DNA from: Mesodorylaimus sp. YZB2_4
Lineage: Eukaryota; Nematoda; Enoplea; Dorylaimida; Dorylaimidae
Assembly (NCBI GenBank): GCA_030248295.1
Contig: JASANH010001508.1
Location: 62,001 to 126,000 of the forward strand
Direction: 5' to 3'
DNA: 64,000 nt
The position numbers were made by a program, and so were the translations under genes. Shown in pieces: positions 19,680-44,188 of this stretch. A model generated the notes under the pieces. The model was given only the letters and a program-made list of their open reading frames with translations. It was not told the origin of the DNA and ran no database searches. Every line of letters starts with the position of its first letter. Within the stretch, counting starts at the first letter, position 1.

Positions 19680-20202
19680 GATTTATCAGAAGGTCCGATC
19701 GACGGTTCAAGACTCGAGCACAGTTCGCACCGGGCCGCACAGAGATGAAGAACAAAGGACCTAACGAAAGCTTTCAGCCATTTCCATACTTTACATTCCC
19801 GCTGTCTTCATGATTGATTGTCAGTTTGAGTGTTTCGAGCGTGATAAGATCTCAAGAACATGCTATATCATCAGAAAGAAGCAGCGAAATAAATTCGGCA
19901 AGTCACTGTGGGCATCAAAACATGTTTATGATGTGGTGGTTGTTTCCCTAATGACTCTTGGCCGTCCTAGAGTTTTGCTTGTAACGTCGATTTTTCACAG
20001 ATGTGATGCCCAAACGGTCCTATGTACAAAAAGCTACTCCTGGTGGATTACTGATGAACCAGATTGCCAACAAGAGGATGCAGGTGCATCAATAAACTAT
20101 TTGAGCAATCCTGGTCATCATACATTTCTACAAATACGTGGAATAGCAGCTCTGTACAGAAGACATGGTCGGCAGGATAATAAGCAGACTCCTTTGTGCT
20201 TT
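19680..20202. other. Noncoding gap
   Basis: The 5' flank of the mucin-like gene and the 3' flank of the first DEG/ENaC gene. The plus-strand open stretch in 19810-20367 overlaps the last exon of the minus-strand channel gene and shows no independent coding signs. Confidence 0.5.
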
Positions 20203-23200
20203 CTAAATGTCAATCGTAATGGATCTTCTTGCCCATGGCCTTTCAGTGACAATGACCATGGGCTGGCGACGTCCGACCAAGGCGAATGCTGTGGTGCCAT
20301 TCACTACGGCTGGTTGATAAATGGCATGCCTGTTTTGTTCCAGCCAGATTTCACTCGTGTTATTTAAGCGCATTCCACTGGTATCGTTCGAGTATGTCCG
20401 CAGTAGCAGATTTGATTCTGGCCCAATTCCCGATTCTGCACTTCGCCTTCGATTCTTACGTCGCGATTTTGGGTTTGTACAGTCCCCATTCTCTCCTTGA
20501 TGTTGGCTTTTGGAGTGAGAACGACCATATTTCTGGAGTGAAGGGAAATTAGAGAAGATAGGGAAGGAAGATGAAACTGGTGGAGGCATACCGCTTGAAA
20601 AATGTGTGCACATTGGCAGAAGATATACTCAATGATTTCTCCAACAGTTAGTATACTCGCTCCAAGAAACAAGCCTAATGTTCCGCCGATGTCACCTAAA
20701 ATGCCAAGCAGTTGATATGGGTCAAAGTTATACTTACCAATATGCTTACTGACAAGACTCCAAAAGTCAGATGTCTCTTTCTGTTTCAATGTCTCCACAC
20801 TTTTGTCTCTCAAATATATGTTTAGTGCCAGGAGATTGTTCTGGTAGAAATATTCGTCCAGTTTGAGGCTGGTATTGTACTTTTGCAGGTGGTCACGTAG
20901 TGGGTGAAAATGCTGCATATAACTATGCGCACTTTGATCTCCAACATTTAGGACAGTACTAGTCAGGTCTTCTATCTCGGGCAAGCAGGCATTGGCTGAT
21001 AGGAGGCGCGCGAGGGGTGAATTATCGACGAATTGGTACACGCTCTGAAAAAATGGGCACAGAAAAGTTCATAGATGTGGTCTTCAAAATGGCAAAAGAT
21101 CCAAGTTTGATCCAGTGCAGACTAATCTCTACTTACATCAGCGAAAGCTACGTCCAATATTTCAGCGTGTCCATTCGAATCATAATACCTGATCAAAGCT
21201 CCGATCGCAGTTTGTGCGTCGGAGAACTGCCTTCGTAAATGTTTCACGTGATCCCGCAAGTCATCAAAGAAATTCTAAAATAGTTCATTATTATGCTGCC
21301 TCTCTACGTAGTCCTTGCCCCTGCAAGTCCCAAACACTCACTTTGACGGTTTCAAACAAGTGAATTCTGTCAGCCAGTTCAAGAAAATTTTTTGTAAAAT
21401 CGGCTTTTGTCTCTCTTCGTTCACTGAATGCTAACATATGCTCTCGTAATTGTTCGTATTCAGCGACGCCAGGTTTTCGAATGGGCGGTGCTTTTTCGTT
21501 GATTCGTCTAATCCCATCTAACTTTTTGCACGTGGCTCGTATCTCATCAACGATGACCGTATGATTGGTTTTGTAACTGTCTACTAATTCTTGATATTCG
21601 GTGAATAGTTTTGTGAAATTGCCAGCCAGTCGCATACACTCTTGAGCGGCTTCGCTACAGTTGAGTAATTTCTTTTTCAGGCTGGTCTGTTTCATATTAT
21701 AATAAGTCATATCTGAGGCCAGCGGCACGAATTTCGTCAAGTTTGTCAAACAGACGCTAGTGTTCGCCAAAAATTCACGCACAAGCTGTGTTTGATTGAA
21801 TTCATTCAAGGATGTGATATTTTCCGTATAAGCCATATGACCATTCACGAAAGACGTGGCAAGAGTAAAATCGCGAATGGAAGAATCCAAATTCATGGAC
21901 AGCTGTTTGACTGCTGTCTTTGACGTTTCAACGAGCAATTGTTGTCTCACTACAGCCGCTATCTGATCAGCTGATGGAAACCCAATCGGACTAGCTGTCG
22001 ATGTGAAAGAGTTAATAAAGGTGGTGAAAAAGTGATAAGCTATGTCTTCAGCTAATGATCGACAGACTGTGCGAGAATGATTCAATTGTTTGACCAGCAT
22101 GTGGCCGTGTTCGACAACATGGGGTAGCTGAAATGTCGTGGGAAATTTCGTAAGGCTTTCTAAGCTGGGTTTATGCAAGTCTTACAAGAAGCTTTGTCAG
22201 AGGTTTCATGACAATGGAATCGAGTGCTTCCTCTGAGCAGAATCCATTAGCCTCCATCAAAGGTTGCAGGTAATCGATGAAACAGCTAATGTTCCGCATT
22301 CGGGCCATTAGACTCTCGTACACACTGCCACCTGGGACAAAGGATCGGTTCTCGAATTCTTGATACACGTTTAGTAATCGTTCGACCAAGCGTTGATCGA
22401 GATCGACTTCGCTGACGTCGCTGCGGCTACGCGCTTCCTGCAAGTGCGAGACGGGTGACCCAATATGGAACATGGGTCTGAGTCTCTTACTCTGGCCGCT
22501 AGATAGTGAACTTGCATGTCACGGCGTTGTTTTTCAGTCAACAGCGAATCGATGTTGATTGGGGATAACTTAGAGAAAGATACATACTGCTGATATTCAG
22601 TGACATTACAATCTTGGGGACATTCGTCCTCGGCAATATCGGGCGCCCGCTCTAGAAAGGCATGGCGCTTATCACTTAATCTTTCGCCTGTCCCTTGCCA
22701 GTGTTACTTACGCATGGCTTTCACCATACACGTGAAATACTGACTGGCGTTGCAAACCGGCCACAAGGAAGACTTTTCGGACATGTTGTAAGAATATGAC
22801 AAACAAGAACACACGTTCGAAGCTGTCCAGTATTTTTTGTCCAGAGCGCACAGTCGTCTGCTGTAACTATGACTCCCTTTAAATAGTCGTAGAGACGCTA
22901 CGCCACACTGGCCACCCGCATCTTTCTTGAGTCGTATGGTCTGAAAAAAGCAACCATCAAAATCCAAAATATTTCTCCCAGTGCTTGTACCGTTTTCTCT
23001 TTCAGACCAACCGAAATCTGAAATCCAGGCGCCACATCAAATCCTTGTTCAGAAACGGCTGGCGTAGAACCTTGTTCATAGATCAGGACCTGAAATTTAA
23101 ATTGGCATTCGAAGCTACAGCAGGGCGTGGCATAATTTGACATACTTTAACTCCGACGGTTTTTTGAGGGCCAGCCATAGCCTCATAATCCTCAACATTC

Positions 23201-24332
23201 AAAAGTAAGTACAAACCATATCCAGAACCAGTATTTGTTGCCACGAAAGGAGAGCTGGTATTCTTCTCAGACGCATTGCGTGCGACACTGTCAGAGATAT
23301 CATTGATTGCGTAACATACGCCGTAATCAGTGATCACTGTTCGAAAATTCTCACTCGTGCATTCTTGACCATCGGGCCATGAGCAGCTAAATCGATAGAA
23401 TCAAAGACAGGTTTATGACTGCTAGAATTCGACCTTACTGCAAGACCATGTTTTCTTTCTGATGAGCAGCAGCTTTCAAAAACTTGGCGCCATCTATGCG
23501 TCTCAGTTGTGGGAATCGTTGAACATTGACTGCACCAGAGGCAGTCTCGTTGTAGAGCGTTCGTAGAACGAGCGACATGTTCCATTTGGGTTTCGTTGCT
23601 TCAGAGATCCTGCAAAGAAGAACGATTATACGAGTATACAAGAGAACTGAAAGCACCATTGTCGCACCTGAATAGATTCGCGTTGCATAACATGACGGCT
23701 GGAAATGTCATTTTGCTCAGATACTGGACCTCCATATCCAAAGCCACTGGAGTGCCAAAATATGATCGAAGCTTGTTGGTTAATTGATAGATCAACGCAA
23801 TAAATGATAAGAACATGAGTAGCACCCATAGACACCTACAAGACAGTGCCGGTACTTTTAATCGCCGCGGCGTCATACCTGTCAGCTTACTTCTTCCATA
23901 GAGCCGTAGCCAATGTAATACGTTTCACTCCGTGCAATGTGGTCTCGCGGCTGAACTGGGCCAGGGATGCCCACAAATCCCGTAGTATGGTTTTGAAATT
24001 CGGCCCACCATTGTCCAGTGATCTGTACAGAGAGGCCCGATTACAGTATATCAGAGGGTCAATCAACACCGCGCAAATTGTGATGACATGGGTTACACGA
24101 AAGCGCACGGGAGTACTGCATGAGTCTATTAAATCACTTACTTCCGACGCTTCGAATCGATTGACCCATTCTCACAGGCGGCTTCATTGGGTACGGCCGA
24201 GGCGCAATAAGGTGCCGAATACGTGTAAGAACCAGGCGGGTACATTTTCTTCTTCGGCACCTGAAATTTCTTTGCGCACTCTTCACCTTGCATATTTGAC
24301 TTCTTCGATTCCTCCTGCTCCTTTTCAGACAT
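20203..24332 (-). CDS. DEG/ENaC channel subunit with ~480-residue extracellular insertion
   Basis: Amiloride-sensitive Na+ channel family; subunits trimerise in the plasma membrane. Fourteen exons join in frame to 1102 residues: 24142-24332, 23891-24022, 23668-23835, 23439-23609, 23146-23386, 22991-23089, 22712-22940, 22491-22651, 22186-22437, 21342-22127, 21137-21274, 20738-21044, 20592-20695, 20203-20532. Landmarks in order are the gating motif FSRETTLHG, TM1 (LWVLLMFLSFIALIYQL), FPAVMLCNANLFR, DYGVCYAIN, Cys-rich finger (CSCLSYSYNMS) and CPQDCNVTEYQQY. TM2 holds the pore motif in DIGGTLGLFLGASILT (GAS filter). Between CPQDC and TM2 the family normally has a few dozen residues. Here about 480 residues of helical, heavily N-glycosylatable sequence (NHS, NIT, NQT, NTS, NLT, NCS, NFT, NHT) intervene, mostly from the 786-nt exon. 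A start at 24359 would add nine residues. Confidence 0.93.
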
Positions 24333-24359: not shown

Positions 24360-25795
24360 CCACCTTCTTGACCGAGGGCCAAACGCGACTGAGGGTTGAA
24401 CAATGATAATTGTGATCCACTGTCACAAGAACGCGCTCAACCTAAGCTAAACGAATCTAGGCCATATCCCCCCTCCACGCTCCACAAACCAATTCAGGCC
24501 AGACATGCATCATGCTGCTTAGATCACGTCAAAGAAATCAAGCTCGCGTCGATAGCGCCAACTGCATCCGTCAAAGAAGTTCTCCCAGGATATCGCCATG
24601 CGTCATGTCAGTTGCGGGCACGGGCTTTGTCCATCAAGGCGCGCCTGACCGTCTCCTTTTCGTATGTCGATGCACATTACTTCGCTTGTTTGCTTATTAG
24701 CTCTTTTTTCTGAAAAGCTTCAATGTCAAGAAAGTGCTCGCATGGCGCAGCAAAAACAAGCCCTTTCCGATTACGTCTCGCCAGCCTCTTGCACATGGTT
24801 TCGTAAAAGCTGTATAAGACCCGTCGTAAATCAAGATCAAACTCGTGTGTTCCACCAGCCAATGGCCACAAGGACAGTATTTCATTTCAGCAACGGTCCA
24901 GCCGACCTAATCTAAATAGTAGGTAATGGAAATCTGGCCGGTTTCGTATTCCCAGTCTTGCGCCCATCCTCGGCTTAATTTCCAGAAAACTGGTAACACA
25001 GAGAAACGGCTAATTCAATTTCCCTCCCCCTTTAATATATGGACTGGACAAGGCTGAGAGAAGGATGAACCGAGTGTTTTTCTACGCTTTACTCGCCTTA
25101 ATCAATGGATAAGTCCGCAAAGCTTAAACAAGCGTGAAATGATAGCCGCATTTGGAAAAACCATGGAAATCGTTTCCTAATTGGCTAAAGTGCATTCTAG
25201 GCTTGAAAAGTTTGCACAAAAAAGAAACGTGCATTTTGGCTACTCATGTCCGAGTGAAAGATAATGCATGGTCTCTCTGGGAAGAGGAAATTGGTTGTCA
25301 AGAGATGACAGACTTGAGGGTGGTTGAACGGGTTAAGAAGAAAAGACAGGACCGATAGATCCAAAAGGTAGGTCACGTAAGCATACCCAAGCATAGACAA
25401 AATCTTTCTGCATCTGGATTACACACTATTGTGATCAGTAGCCACTTGATCGCTGTCACAGCTGCTCAACCACATCTCTGGTGCTTTTCCATGCGTAGGT
25501 TTTTGTGCATGCATTGCTGTCGACTAGACCAGTCCATGCCTTCTGATTATGCGGCCGCGTGTCTCGGAAACTGAGAATAAAATGCAAGGAGGTGTGTTTG
25601 CTTCAGGTAAAGTTACTGATACTACTGCGGGACACTCTATGCTAATGCACGGACATTTTGACAGCGGCATTAGGTTTCAACAAAAAGATAGCGTGGCGGG
25701 TCCTTTCGTTACCTTTCTCTCTACCTGTCGCACCAATTGTGAGCTGGTGAGCGGTTTGCTAGACCCTTCGTGCTTGGTCTGTACATGGTATCAGA
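24360..25795. other. Shared upstream region of two divergent DEG/ENaC genes
   Basis: About 1.4 kb between the starts of the minus-strand and plus-strand channel genes. No gene was seen. The arrangement allows shared control, but no specific site stands out. Confidence 0.5.
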
Positions 25796-27356
25796 ATGGC
25801 ATCATTGTCTCGGACGAGCTCCACTGCAGGTCGAACATCGTCAAACGTTCTTTCCGCCAAACCATCAACTATGAGCGGAAAGTTAGAGCCCAGGACAAAA
25901 GTTGGTCAATTCGCTGAAGACACGACCATACACGGGCTGAAAGACTTGTACCGAGTGTGGAATGAGAATGGGACTCTAAAGTGGGCCTGGGTTCTTTTGT
26001 TAGTAGCATCGACTGGATCCATGGTCTACGAGATGGTACAAGTTATACTTAATTATTTGGCACGACCTACGGCGACCCAAATTGCGCAGATGTACCTGGA
26101 ATCGTATAAATATCCTCGTATGTTATTCTGTCCAAGGTTTTGGATCAATGCCACGCGAGTGAAAGCACTCGGCTTACCGAAATCTTCTTTGGCTTATGCA
26201 CTCTCTTTCCTTCATCTTATAAAAGTACAACCAGATCCACCCATCGTAGACTTCGAGTTAACAGCTTCGGAGCTGCATCAAGCTATGGCCAAGTACAATT
26301 TTAGCACTTACTTCGATCTATATTTGAACATAAGCGACGACAGTGAGCGCACGATGACTTGTCCCTCCTGCGCTGTATGGCCATTACCTAAACGAGTGAC
26401 CGAAGATGGGGTATGTTATTTGATCGACTTGAAACCCGCCCGTGTTTCTTTCCTTATCGAGCATCCACCCCAAATCACTTACACTCCAGTCCTACCTTCC
26501 CAACTGGATGCGGAAAACTGGCTACCGGCTTACAATAGTACTCACAACACTGAACAGTTCTATGTCGGCTATTATCCCAATGACTTCTTCAATTCTGATC
26601 CAATAAAGTTATCACACAACAAATCCTATATAATTAAAGTTACACCGACCTTACAACGTCGATTTAGTGGCTATCAATTGAAAACGGGTCGCGGGTGCTA
26701 CGATAACGAGACTATGGCCAAGCTGAACCACTCGCAACGGATGTGTTACTCAGATTGCGAGGAGTGGACATATGGCACTGCCTGCTGGAAAGTGCAATAT
26801 ATCGGGTACAGTTTCGACAAGCCAGGCAGAGTTAGACCGCCCTTCTTTTCCTCGTTGACTTACGTAGACCAGCCCAAAGCTGAGGCTGAGGCATGTCAGA
26901 AGCGAGAAAAAGTAAATTACGATCTCTGCGTCACCAAGTGCCTGCCACCGTGCGAGGAATGGATTTACGACACTACTGTCATAGCTGTTAACAGTCCGAG
27001 AATGTGGATCGATCAGCAGGATGCAGCAGTGACTATCGTGATCAGCTATCAAGTCAAGGCTGGTACTTTATCAGTTGAAGAGATATCTACTTACACCTAC
27101 CACACCTTTCTCAGTAACATTGGTGGACAGTTGGGTCTTTGGTAAGGTAGTTGAGTCCACTGTGCCAGCCACCTTCAGCCCATTTTGTTTCAGGTTGGGA
27201 GCCAGTGTTTTGTCTGTTTTTCAACTCGTTTTTTTCCTGGTGCGGTTAGCATATGATCGTTGGATTGACGAGCACAGGCAAAAACAGAGTGTGTCGCCAC
27301 GAAATGAGACACCTGCAACTGCTGAAAATGGGCACCATTGGACTGCACGCTTATGA
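25796..27356 (+). CDS. DEG/ENaC channel subunit, nearly intronless
   Basis: A second amiloride-sensitive Na+ channel subunit, of conventional length: 502 residues in two exons (25796-27141, 27194-27356). Landmarks are the gating motif FAEDTTIHG, TM1 (WAWVLLLVASTGSMVYEMV), the extracellular Cys-rich region (CPSCAVWP, EDGVCYLID, CYSDCEEW, CVTKCLPPCEEW) and TM2 with the pore motif split by the only intron (NIGGQLGLW|LGASVLS, GAS filter). A short cytosolic tail ends at TGA 27354-27356. An internal start at 25871 (MSGKLEP) would still keep the gating motif; the 25796 ATG was kept because it has G at +4. It is divergently transcribed from the large DEG/ENaC gene but is too different to be a recent duplicate. 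Confidence 0.94.
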
Positions 27357-36527: not shown

Positions 36528-36625
36528 CAGGCTCGTGGCCTGGTCTGGTTTAAGCATCTGCCTCTCGCGCCACAGGTTCGCAGTTACGGGCGAGTGTTCG
36601 ACTCACGGCATGGTAAAATCATTCC
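36528..36625 (+). repeat. Diverged tRNA-derived SINE copy
   Basis: Plus-strand head with CGTGGCCTGGTCTGGTTTAA, CATCTGCCTCTCGCG and box B GTGTTCGACTCACGGC, followed by GGTAAAATCATT. Same family as the other copies but more diverged. Confidence 0.6.
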
Positions 36626-36918
36626 ATGTATAATCTTCCCCTTAACCCCAGTGCGCATACCTGCGTTTGGTGGTGTGGTAAAACATGAACATGGACATGA
36701 TGATGAACATGCTCACTATCAGCAGGAGGTACGTCCATAACTATTGCGTTTCGGATGCTTATTGGCACCAGTCGCTTAACACATCAGTGTGACGATGACG
36801 TACCCTACCAGTGGGACATAAGAAGAACCGAAGTCTCTAGATCAAAAAAACCCCAAACCAATTTGCGAGTACTTGCTTCCTGGCGAGCTGGAAAAACGTC
36901 TGAAACATCAAACCTCCC

Positions 36919-39839: not shown

Positions 39840-41897
39840 TTACACCAATAAACTCGAATTACTTATCCTTGGCACGGCCAATCCAGTGACACTACTACTC
39901 TCGCTTCCACTATCCACATGGTCGGTTTGCCCCGGACGAGCGCGTCCATTGTATCCATTAGTCCTCTCACTTCCATTCACAGCTCGATAATTCTCCTCGC
40001 GCCCCATCACAGAATTAGGCTGCACATAATCGCTCTCTTTCGTTCTCATTCCCGGCGCAGGAACTTTCGGATTTCCGTTTTCCAGATGATAACGAAATTT
40101 GACGGGTGACTGACCAGATGCACCAGATTTTAGAAAGCTAGGCCTATAAATCGGCTCGTCCTGAGAATTGGCTGGTTCGTAACTCATCAAGAAAGCGGGC
40201 TCGTAGCCGATCGGTTGCCGTTGTTGTTGTTGAGGCTGTCGGACGAATGAAGTAGATAAATTTTGAGAATCTCGCGAGAGTCGTGGATCATCGTCCGAGC
40301 CGCCGCCCCGCGACGGCGGTAAGCCACTATCGAAACTGACCACATCTGGTGCCGTTAAAAGCTTCCGCTGATGAGGCGGTTGTTGTTGAGTAGTTGAAGT
40401 ACTAGCGCGAGATAAAATCGTCTCTTGACTACGCGCCAGATGATCGTGGAATCTCAGCAATGTGTCCCCATCGCTTTTCGGATCGAAACTAATGACTGAT
40501 CGACGCACAGGATTCATCGGTCGAAACGGGTCGATCGACGCTTGTTGCTGTCGAGCACCAACTCCGTTCGAATTGACACCAATTCTTCTCGGTTCCATGT
40601 TATAGTCGACGACTTCACTCGACTGATCGTCCGGAGTAGGATCCCTTTTTGGATAGGTGCGAACAATTGGCTGTCGACGAGACATCTCCTCTTTTGGCGA
40701 TGAGGATTTCGAATCCGAGGACTCAGATGCCGTCACTGGAGCCGTAGGTGCCATATCATTGGCCAACAGGTCTCCCAGATCTTGTACAGGTCGAGCCAAG
40801 CGTTGAGACTGGCGCGAAGAGGACGTTCGAATCGAGTCTGCCAGCTGTACAGGGCCAGATATATCACGATTGCGACCATTGGCGCTGCTCGATCGACCTC
40901 GAGGAGTCAATGGAGGCAAATCATCGGCCGATGTCGATCGAGGTGGTCGAAGTTGATCAACCGAAGGCATTTCGTTCGTTTGATTGCTCTGACTTCGTTC
41001 TCGAGATTTGTCCCGTGTTTTCCTTCGAGCGCTTCCTGTGCCGCCACCTCCGCCATTGCTTCGTCGCTTATTCGAATTTCTTCGATAATTTTGAAGTGGT
41101 TGAGGCGGGGGTGGTCGATTATTAGAACTACCATTGGCGAGAATCGGACCACTTATTTTTCGAGCAGCGGGGCTCGCATCGTACGAAACGTTCAAATATC
41201 CACTCGATAAGTCGGATGATCGCGCAAAACTGGTATCAGCTGCATTGGTCTGAGGCAATTGAGCATCGCTGACTTCGTTGGTGTTGATAACTGGTGGCGT
41301 AGGACCAATTTCCACAGTCACGTGGGGACGGTTTGCAGTTGATCGGCGTCTCGGCAGGGAACTATACGGTTCACTGATCAATTTGCGAGGAGCGTTGACG
41401 AGGAATATGACCGTCACAATTAGAATAATAAAAGTCAAAAGAACATGGACGGAAGCCTCGATAATTTCAACAATAAATGGTTGCAGAAATTTACATTCGC
41501 CAATTTCTACAGTAGCGCTTGTAGCGTTATAATTACGTTGACAACCGGGCGTATGCCGAGCCCACCACGATCGGCCACCAGTGCCCCAACTCAAAGGACG
41601 AGCGTCGTCACGATCTAACACGCCGATGTTCAAATAATAACAAATTAAGAAAGTGTTCCAAGCTAACCAAAATGGTATCCAACATATGTAAACAATGAAA
41701 AAGCGGAATCGTAATTGCGCAGCCGCAAATATGGCGAAAATTGTAAAAATGACATTAAAAAAATTAGCAGCGATAGGAGACCAGGCGTAACCCATCAAAT
41801 CGAAGACTTGTCTTACGCCGGTCAAAAGTAGATTCAAAGATAGCAGAATAAGTAATACGCATCGAAGACGGGTTTGATAAAACGGAACCGCAGCCAT
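39840..41897 (-). CDS. nkain: NKAIN family protein with long cytosolic tail
   Basis: Na+/K+-transporting ATPase interacting protein: a four-pass membrane protein whose vertebrate and fly members bind the Na,K-ATPase beta subunit and affect neuronal function. The 685-residue intronless frame begins with the family hallmarks. These are TM1 (CVLLILLSLNLLLTG), QVFDLMGYAWSPI, ANFFNVIFTIF, TM2-TM3 around RFRFFIVYICWIPFWLAWN, the extracellular loop ending CKFLQPFIVEI, and TM4 (SVHVLLTFIILIVTVIFLV). Known NKAINs are about 200 residues long. Here about 480 extra residues follow TM4, low in complexity and rich in Ser, Arg, Asn, Pro and Gln (poly-Q-like QQQQRQPI), probably disordered. The same window carries an Na,K-ATPase alpha-type gene, but 35 kb away. 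Confidence 0.92.
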   Translation of the reverse strand: MAAVPFYQTRLRCVLLILLSLNLLLTGVRQVFDLMGYAWSPIAANFFNVIFTIFAIFAAAQLRFRFFIVYICWIPFWLAWNTFLICYYLNIGVLDRDDARPLSWGTGGRSWWARHTPGCQRNYNATSATVEIGECKFLQPFIVEIIEASVHVLLTFIILIVTVIFLVNAPRKLISEPYSSLPRRRSTANRPHVTVEIGPTPPVINTNEVSDAQLPQTNAADTSFARSSDLSSGYLNVSYDASPAARKISGPILANGSSNNRPPPPQPLQNYRRNSNKRRSNGGGGGTGSARRKTRDKSRERSQSNQTNEMPSVDQLRPPRSTSADDLPPLTPRGRSSSANGRNRDISGPVQLADSIRTSSSRQSQRLARPVQDLGDLLANDMAPTAPVTASESSDSKSSSPKEEMSRRQPIVRTYPKRDPTPDDQSSEVVDYNMEPRRIGVNSNGVGARQQQASIDPFRPMNPVRRSVISFDPKSDGDTLLRFHDHLARSQETILSRASTSTTQQQPPHQRKLLTAPDVVSFDSGLPPSRGGGSDDDPRLSRDSQNLSTSFVRQPQQQQRQPIGYEPAFLMSYEPANSQDEPIYRPSFLKSGASGQSPVKFRYHLENGNPKVPAPGMRTKESDYVQPNSVMGREENYRAVNGSERTNGYNGRARPGQTDHVDSGSESSSVTGLAVPRISNSSLLV

Positions 41898-44188
41898 GAT
41901 TAAACAGATGAGGAACCAGACAGTGTTGCTGGACGATAAAATTCAAAAACAACGGTACCAAATATCTGGCTAGGCTATATGACCTGGTTCAGCCTCGGCG
42001 GTAGTCGTTCAAATAGGCAATGACGCAATGGCGCTGTCCGTACCAAGCATGGCAAATATATGGGCAACTATGCACACACACGGTGTCCGAAAACGGCGAC
42101 CAAGTCGTAAAGCAAACAGCAAGGCGGTGCGGCACCTAAATAAGGAAATCGCAAATGATGACAAGATTGACCCAGAAAAGCAAGTTAAGTAGGCTGAGAG
42201 TAAGCCCCCAACTTTTTGAAAGCAACTAAAAGCATTGCCGCTTTCGTTTATGCATTGCTCTCGTAAATGTCGCTATGTATCAGTTAGAAAGCGAGAAAGG
42301 ACGAAGTAGGGCGGAACGCAGCAGAGCCGGAGCAGTGAGAGGAGAAAAAATTTCTGTGTTTTTGCGGAGTAGTTGCCCTTCCAACAGAACGTATTAGGCT
42401 ACGCTGAAGGGGAAGAGAACTTCCACACTTACCCTCAAAAATGTAGGTAAATCCTTGCCGTAAATTACACTCACCCTGCATCAATTGAAGACAGGCAACG
42501 AGAAGGCCCGTCGGATAAGCAATAGCACTTTAATGCTTCGGAGGCAGCACTTTTACTTTCGAATCGTCGAAATTCGAGAAACCACGGTGGTGTTCATGAC
42601 CAATATCCTGTTGCGCTTGAACACCTGTTCCGCCGGGTGGCGAGGCCCAAAATTTTTTGAGGCGATCCAGTGAATGCTCATCGGGCAATCATCCGAAAAA
42701 TGCTGGGATAGAAAACAAACACGGCCGTTAGTTTTGAGCAGGGGCAGGTTATGAGCAACAATAGTCAGTCGAAGAACAGAAAAGACGGTGGCTTCCTTCG
42801 AGGTCAAGCAACATCGATCGATAATAACCGCCGACAGACGGCGAGACGAAAAAGGCCTTGTCGCCTTGTCTGTCTGTTCGCCCCCCTCCCGGCTACGCAC
42901 TTTTCCTTCACGACGTGAATGTCCGCTTACCCATTTAGGCGCTAAATTCAAAATACTGATGTGGGCAACACCATGAGTTTGCTCGATTGTGTTCATCGCC
43001 AGTTTCTGAGGCTGAGGCCAGAAGCTGGAATATGTACGAAAAAATAACTATCCCCCTTTGCTGCTCTAAAATTTCCTAGAAATCGCATGAACAACAAGAA
43101 GGCCCTCGTCAAAATAGGCTCTTTATAAAAGAAGCAAGCCTGCTTTGTAGCCTACAGTCTCGTTCGGTATGCACACAGAGGAGAGCCGTCGGTGACAGCT
43201 AATCTGCCCCTGAGAGAACAGCGTGTCGGCTGATCCCAGCTTGTCACCATACTTCCGCATCAGCTAATCCTAGGACATCTAAGTGTACTAGGTACTATGC
43301 CAAAAGAAAGAGCAGAGACACTTTGCTCGTCCCTGCATAACCGAAGATATTTCACCAGCAGTGCGGGAATGCTTTTCGCAGGATCTTCATTACACTTGGT
43401 TTCGTTCAGTGAACAAGTTTTAGGTCAATTGGTAGTTCCTCGAATACGGTACAGTATGGTGCTTGTCCATATCGCCCTGATAAAATCCATTCGCCGTGCA
43501 TACTCATAAAATTTCGATTGGTGTCCAGCCAAATGAGGACAGATTCGAAGAACTTAAATTTTCAAGCCCTGTATGTACATTTACTGAATGAGCAGGTTTT
43601 TCAGCAGTAAAGTCATGATGATACTCGATTTACTCCCAAAAAGGTCTTCTGAGATTTCCCAGACCGAAATCAACAAATTTTCGCAAGTTTTCGGACGACT
43701 CCCACGCAAGGGATTCCAATCTGGTGATCGGAGCCCGCTTCGGAACCCCTGACAAGACGTACTCGACGGATGGGGGGGGGGGGGGGGGGGGAATTGTCGA
43801 GTAAGCCCAGGTTTATTACCCTCTTCCACCTCGAAGACATTCCCTGGGTTGGCACGAACAGGACGCCAAAGCACAGCAGTTCCTGTACACAGTTATACAG
43901 AGCTGTAGCCTAATAATTTCGTATATTGTGCTGTGGAGCGTGCGTACTGTACTTGTAAACTGGGGCGGCAGTGATACGGCTGAGGTCTACTGTATTGCAT
44001 GGTAACAAGCAGCAGTAAGCGTGGCCCACCTTCAGCAGTGTTTCGTACAGCAATGTAAGGAGCCAGTGTAAAGTCAGCGCACCCGGCTTGAACTCCTCAT
44101 CGTCAGAAGAGTGTTGGGAACAGTCGGGTCAGGTGGTCGGTCGGAAGCTCTCTTGCAACTCTCCTCATCTCGATCGTCGTCGTCGAGC
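41898..44188. other. Noncoding stretch
   Basis: No gene with support. It holds the 20-nt poly-G tract at 43772-43791. The 5' flank of the UBE2L3-like gene lies at its right edge. Confidence 0.5.
43772..43791. repeat. Poly-G tract
   Basis: Twenty consecutive G residues in noncoding DNA. Confidence 0.95.

Follow-up and report, generated by a model that had tools for sequence, protein, structure and literature searches.

A DEG/ENaC channel gene of Mesodorylaimus with a large helical, sequon-rich insert predicted at the knuckle

In a 64,000-nucleotide stretch of the Mesodorylaimus sp. YZB2_4 genome (hereafter the window), we identified a gene for a predicted DEG/ENaC channel subunit whose knuckle appears to have gained ~460 residues that form a helical, disulfide-capable module bearing N-glycans, with the role of an extracellular tether or ligand arm as the likeliest. 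This reading is tentative, and we give it as a whole a probability of about 0.45. It starts from what was established directly, namely the gene model, the site of the insert (by sequence alignment), its size, its open frame, its helical periodicity, its excess of sequons and the lack of a significant second copy in the genome.

The channel gene lies on the minus strand at 24332..20592 of the window, where 13 GT-AG exons join into 2979 nt with one reading frame and a product of 993 aa. A preliminary description of this DNA had the sequence and coordinates correct and counted 14 exons in one frame; the single frame stood, but the count came to 13 GT-AG exons followed by a C-terminal tail with two options, 75 additional aa by retention of the next intron or one more splice. 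Introns of the gene range from 42 to 119 nt, and those around the insert measure 53, 58, 67 and 92 nt. In line with the earlier statement that the channel landmarks are present, the model contains several of them (TTLHGVKRI, TM1, FPAVMLCNAN, CPQDC, NLLALNIYLRD...ETLKQKE and GDIGGTLGLFLGAS). The model consists of these features:

Exon 1, 24142..24332, minus strand: N-terminus, residues 1-64; start codon putative.
Exon 2, 23891..24022, minus strand: HG motif TTLHGVKRI (gene model and ASIC1 alignment).
Exon 3, 23668..23835, minus strand: TM1 and FPAVMLCNAN (gene model, hydropathy windows starting at 99-112, ASIC1 alignment).
Exon 4, 23439..23609, minus strand: extracellular domain (gene model and ASIC1 alignment).
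Exon 5, 23146..23386, minus strand: extracellular domain (gene model and ASIC1 alignment).
Exon 6, 22991..23089, minus strand: extracellular domain (gene model and ASIC1 alignment).
Exon 7, 22712..22940, minus strand: extracellular, cysteine-rich (gene model and ASIC1 alignment).
Exon 8, 22491..22651, minus strand: CPQDC...VSFSKL of the channel, then insert residues 440-464 (ASIC1 alignment).
Exon 9, 22186..22437, minus strand: 252 nt, phase 0-0, insert residues 465-548.
Exon 10, 21342..22127, minus strand: 786 nt, phase 0-0, insert residues 549-810.
Exon 11, 21137..21274, minus strand: 138 nt, phase 0-0, insert residues 811-856.
Exon 12, 20738..21044, minus strand: insert residues 857-910, then KYNTS...NLLALNIYLRD...ETLKQKE toward TM2.
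Exon 13, 20592..20695, minus strand: GDIGGTLGLFLGAS, TM2 (gene model and ASIC1 alignment).
C-terminal tail, 20367..20591, minus strand: uncertain, an open frame or one further short intron.

At and opposite the 3' end of the channel gene, the plus strand of the window holds a 200-aa open frame with several cysteines (19765-20364; no Pfam match at 0.001). Elsewhere in the window, a 700-aa single open frame on the minus strand (39843-41942) matches NKAIN (Na,K-ATPase interacting) only at its residues 26-181.

Against Pfam, the whole channel protein matched ASC (PF00858) with 246.1 bits (cut-off 23.6, E=1e-72) in two stretches, the best of which covers residues 87-446. Hydropathy marks two membrane helices on either side of a large cysteine-rich ectodomain: 19-residue windows exceeding 1.6 begin at 99-112 and at 965-967 and nowhere else. 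TTLHGV and FLGASILT of the channel align with TLHG and FIGAS of ASIC1; we take TTLHGV to be the HG motif and the GAS of FLGASILT to be the GxS motif in TM2. Twelve of the 14 ectodomain cysteines of ASIC1 are kept in an alignment read by eye. When the protein was searched against PDB sequences, which cover solved structures only, ASIC1 or ASIC2 made up the first 13 of the 31 listed (best 5.8e-38), and FMRFamide-gated channels, ASIC5 and ENaC ranked below them among those 31. Compared with ASIC1 (PDB 4nyk, 2qts and 3ij4, the last under an older ASIC1 name, 'amiloride-sensitive cation channel 2, neuronal'), the channel shares the overall framework between HG motif and TM2, the GAS motif and the pre-TM2 strand, but lacks two of the cysteines. 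The gene is predicted to encode an ASIC-like DEG/ENaC subunit.

In a HMMER alignment with ASIC1 (3ij4 chain), ASIC1 residue 379 pairs with VSFSKL (model residue 439) and residue 391 with KYNTS (911); the second aligned stretch, beyond the insert, has an i-Evalue of 2.7e-7. The insert comprises residues 440-910, which is 471 residues against 11 in ASIC1 (380-390) and a net gain of ~460. The earlier estimate was about 480 residues, and most of the insert does come from the 786-nt exon, as had been proposed (262 of the 471 residues). The insert has a mass of ~53 kDa and is spread over five exons with four phase-0 introns within, and 501 residues separate the second Cys of CxxxC from the N before the TM2-leading strand. 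We take ASIC1 380-390, the segment that links the CxxxC strand to the TM2-leading strand, to be knuckle helix alpha6, which fits the order of the elements. The insert would thus sit at the knuckle, on the upper outer rim of the extracellular side. The preliminary description had rightly placed an extra extracellular module within a DEG/ENaC channel, but its position right above the pore gives way to the knuckle under the ASIC1 alignment and the knuckle assignment above; this placement comes from sequence alignment with ASIC1, not from structure.

Exons 9, 10 and 11 have no stops in the true frame, and each of the other five frames holds 3 to 5 stops in exon 9, 12 to 20 in exon 10 and 1 to 5 in exon 11. 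When the six frames were scored for codon use, after training on 5192 codons from DEG/ENaC open frames of the same genome, the true frame came top in exons 8 to 12, although the margin in exon 11 was tiny (0.118 against 0.110 for the reverse strand). Because the true frame did not come top in five of the eight channel-only exons (1, 2, 3, 7 and 13), we give this score little weight and rely more on the stop-free 786-nt exon. The splice sites of the insert exons resemble those of the channel exons, with consensus-like donors and acceptors when read by eye. On sequence grounds, the insert is confirmed as a genuine coding part of the channel gene model.

The hydrophobic periodicity of an alpha-helix seen across residues 440-910 was reached by none of 500 shuffles. 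By part, it was reached by 1 of 500 shuffles for exon 10, 16 of 500 for exon 9 and 38 of 500 for exon 11 plus the first part of exon 12, and that of the channel ectodomain (130-439) by 157 of 500. Proline and glycine together make up 5.5% of the insert. It carries eight cysteines and ten N-glycosylation sequons, against a shuffle mean of 3.3 (2 of 5000 shuffles reached this count), and periodicity and sequon counts both uphold the earlier view of a helical, N-glycosylatable stretch. No membrane helix was found in the insert, in which no 19-residue window has a mean hydropathy above 1.1, and BLASTP of the insert against itself found no internal repeats. AlphaFold single-sequence models of exons 10 and 9 alone were almost wholly helical, with low mean pLDDT (53 and 59).

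A profile search of the insert alone agreed with the previous statement that no described domain matches it, as none did in Pfam or PDB. At E up to 10, Pfam returned only FH2, DUF4298 and Occludin_ELL, each below cut-off; the match to formin FH2 (PF02181; 17.0 bits against a cut-off of 34.8, E=0.0035) was read as chance helix similarity. A PDB sequence search with the insert gave three matches (E 0.56 to 1.4), none of which was accepted as a homologue, and no ENaC chain was among the matches listed. With the exon-10 model, Foldseek listed 227 matches (E up to 10), none of which reached 0.001; the best, to designed helical proteins (0.05), came from a model of too low quality to be relied on and were not accepted as homologues. 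An IMG/VR scan with exon 10 found no relative. Against the 145-Mb assembly, exon 10 matched itself and, at E 0.125, one other site, where 56 residues were 30% identical and interrupted by a stop, and the remaining parts of the insert gave four matches, all within the channel gene itself. When the whole protein was compared with the collected genome loci, nothing fell within residues 441-914 beyond the gene's own loci. The genome has no significant second copy of the insert. We found no large DEG/ENaC knuckle insert of such kind described in the accessible portions of the open-licence PMC literature, and the part of PMC10424705 available to us has nothing on such an insert.

Apart from the gene itself, the three relatives that scored best in the genome were C18 (30% identity), C5 (27%) and C108 (30%), as measured over matched pieces. 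Their spacers from CxxxC to the TM2 strand are 59 (C18, L054), 56 (C5, L002) and 49 residues (C108, L055) against 501 in the window gene, that of C5 lying within one open frame and those of C18 and C108 depending on splice junctions read by eye. A phase-1 intron before GDI is common to C18, C108 and the window gene, and C18 and C108 have a phase-2 intron directly before EN of the TM2-leading strand that the window gene lacks. Head to head with the channel gene stands a second DEG/ENaC gene (window 25763-27142, plus strand), whose 460-aa open frame matches ASC at E=1e-26 over profile positions 1-441 and is without such an insert.

Across the genome there are at least 114 ASC matches, with exon pieces counted and 93 of 1085 first-look candidates scored. 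Half of these (57 of 114) run unbroken across profile positions 370 to 426; by a split counted by eye, 41 of the 57 have zero stops and at most 45 residues beyond the profile, and the other 16 have 1 to 10 stops and an excess worth at most 233 residues, which we read as introns. Eight ASC matches stop at 370-385. In C18, C102, C11 and C1 a TM2-region stretch lies within ~450 nt, and C117:81780 has only a weak one (E 0.085); in C88 and C814 a repeat comes after the truncated match, and the sole hit further down C88 (E 0.006) was unconvincing. No comparable insert was found among the judgeable ASC matches of these at least 114, with C88, C814 and C117:89961 falling outside that group. Large 'open frames' in C215 and C617 were dismissed as inserts, as neither has a single open frame of such size. 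Its short exons kept the window gene itself out of the 114, and similar genes can have been overlooked for that reason. The DEG/ENaC set is seemingly large for a nematode; the abstract of PMC10424705 speaks of 'all 30' in C. elegans. Several ASC matches are clustered on C26, C64 and C149.

Closely similar DEG/ENaC copies in C88 and C814 carry a high-copy 157-nt repeat (G000:C88:420700-420856, L046; G000:C814:14940-15096, L047) inside the stretch that codes for the knuckle or directly behind it, and stops follow in C88. The repeat has 2411 first-look candidates, with 40 of the 41 matches listed 98-100% alike; it recurs in the window at 36538-36700 (81%) and in C108, where it sits within the knuckle intron. 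It has a tRNA-like look by one motif; ARAGORN found no tRNA in L046. The N-terminal domain of nematode cuticle collagens is matched 133 times in the genome, which marks the source as a nematode, as the preliminary description had supposed; Chitin_bind_4 gave no match, in the controls either. COX1-like stretches lie on both strands of a 488-kb contig (G000:C73:251445-254668; L031 and L033), with internal TGA codons read as tryptophan in L031, and we regard them as mitochondrial pieces, either real insertions or assembly joins.

Several known systems have elements comparable to the insert. As in a TadNaC-type knuckle insertion, the channel has additional residues that follow the CxxxC strand and precede the strand leading to TM2 (471 against 11 in the ASIC1 alignment). 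The knuckle insertions of Trichoplax TadNaC channels are predicted loops in the accessible part of PMC6827283, whereas the present insert is ~460 residues long, helical and encoded by five exons. For alphaENaC, PMC7958617 reports that asparagines in N-glycosylation motifs of the palm and knuckle play an important part in the shear-force response and that, for the knuckle-like N487, hyaluronidase abolishes this response; in deltaENaC, added palm/knuckle motifs led to a higher response. The present channel has in common with these glycan tethers, for which a matrix link is proposed, the N-glycosylation motifs at the knuckle, but alphaENaC has single sites on an ordinary knuckle where the present channel has a ten-sequon module. 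The GRIP domain of ENaC is likewise an extracellular element added to the DEG/ENaC fold and regulates gating; unlike the insert, it contacts finger and thumb and carries inhibitory protease-sensitive tracts (PMC6197857). A tether model for C. elegans has DEG/ENaC channels linked to the matrix (PMC10148893).

From its place and make-up, and given the Trichoplax knuckle insertions and the ENaC knuckle-glycan tethers, a tether or ligand arm would be the likeliest role of the insert. A trimer would bear up to three modules on its upper outer rim, and their glycans and helices may attach to matrix, cuticle or a partner protein. Force or binding could then be relayed via the knuckle to the finger of the neighbouring subunit and also via the TM2-leading palm strand to the pore. 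We infer in this that the insert folds as one domain and is exposed, that it is actually glycosylated, and that it acts as a tether and affects gating. It is conceivable, though rather unlikely, that this is a new kind of DEG/ENaC channel whose glycosylated helical domain, grown from the knuckle, is the sensor itself: an extracellular tether or receptor built into the subunit that gates the pore via the collar of knuckle and finger and needs no separate linker proteins to the matrix.

Amphipathic helices fit a structural or assembly role equally well, and the main rival, though rather unlikely, is that the insert is an assembly or trafficking module that packs on the neighbour's finger and knuckle, fixes co-assembly partners and senses nothing. 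In ENaC, helices of the knuckle and finger of neighbouring subunits together make up a collar, and their contacts differ from interface to interface (PMC6197857); with a DEG/ENaC set as large as that of this genome, partner choice may matter. However, ~53 kDa is far beyond the need of a contact helix, and from the excess of sequons, a large part of the insert surface would be solvent-facing. The insert could also be an optional cassette, the main product skipping exons 9-11 for a smaller knuckle and the long form being a minor isoform, which we consider improbable. Each junction from exon 8 to exon 12 is in phase 0, and as exons 9-11 are all phase 0-0, any one of them could be skipped with the frame kept; runs of phase-0 introns are not rare by chance. 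Even without these exons, 79 residues (440-464 and 857-910) would stay at the knuckle against the 11 of ASIC1, and the consensus-like splice sites, the unbroken frame and the excess of sequons point to an insert that is in use.

Neutral drift, in which an intron-derived or otherwise new coding stretch arose at a permissive surface loop and has no specific function, would account for an insert without a homologue in Pfam, PDB or its own genome; C18 and C108 have an intron near the insert site, and the copies C88 and C108 have a repeat in or beside the knuckle stretch. Helical periodicity across 471 residues together with the sequon excess argues against this origin, which we judge quite improbable. 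A gene-model artefact, with exons 9-11 taken from another gene or from a mis-assembled stretch, is least credible of all, even though the model rests on genomic DNA from a single assembly. Phases match at all junctions on one strand, the insert sequence runs on into exons 8 and 12, both of which have channel motifs, and the repeats found in the region are all short, at 16 to 22 nt and 77 to 88% alike.

Our preferred reading, that of an extracellular tether or ligand arm, bears on the open question of what connects DEG/ENaC channels with their surroundings when touch or shear is sensed. In a subunit that carries a large and separable module rich in sequons where ENaC glycan tethers are proposed to act, the tether hypothesis may become testable via one cassette.
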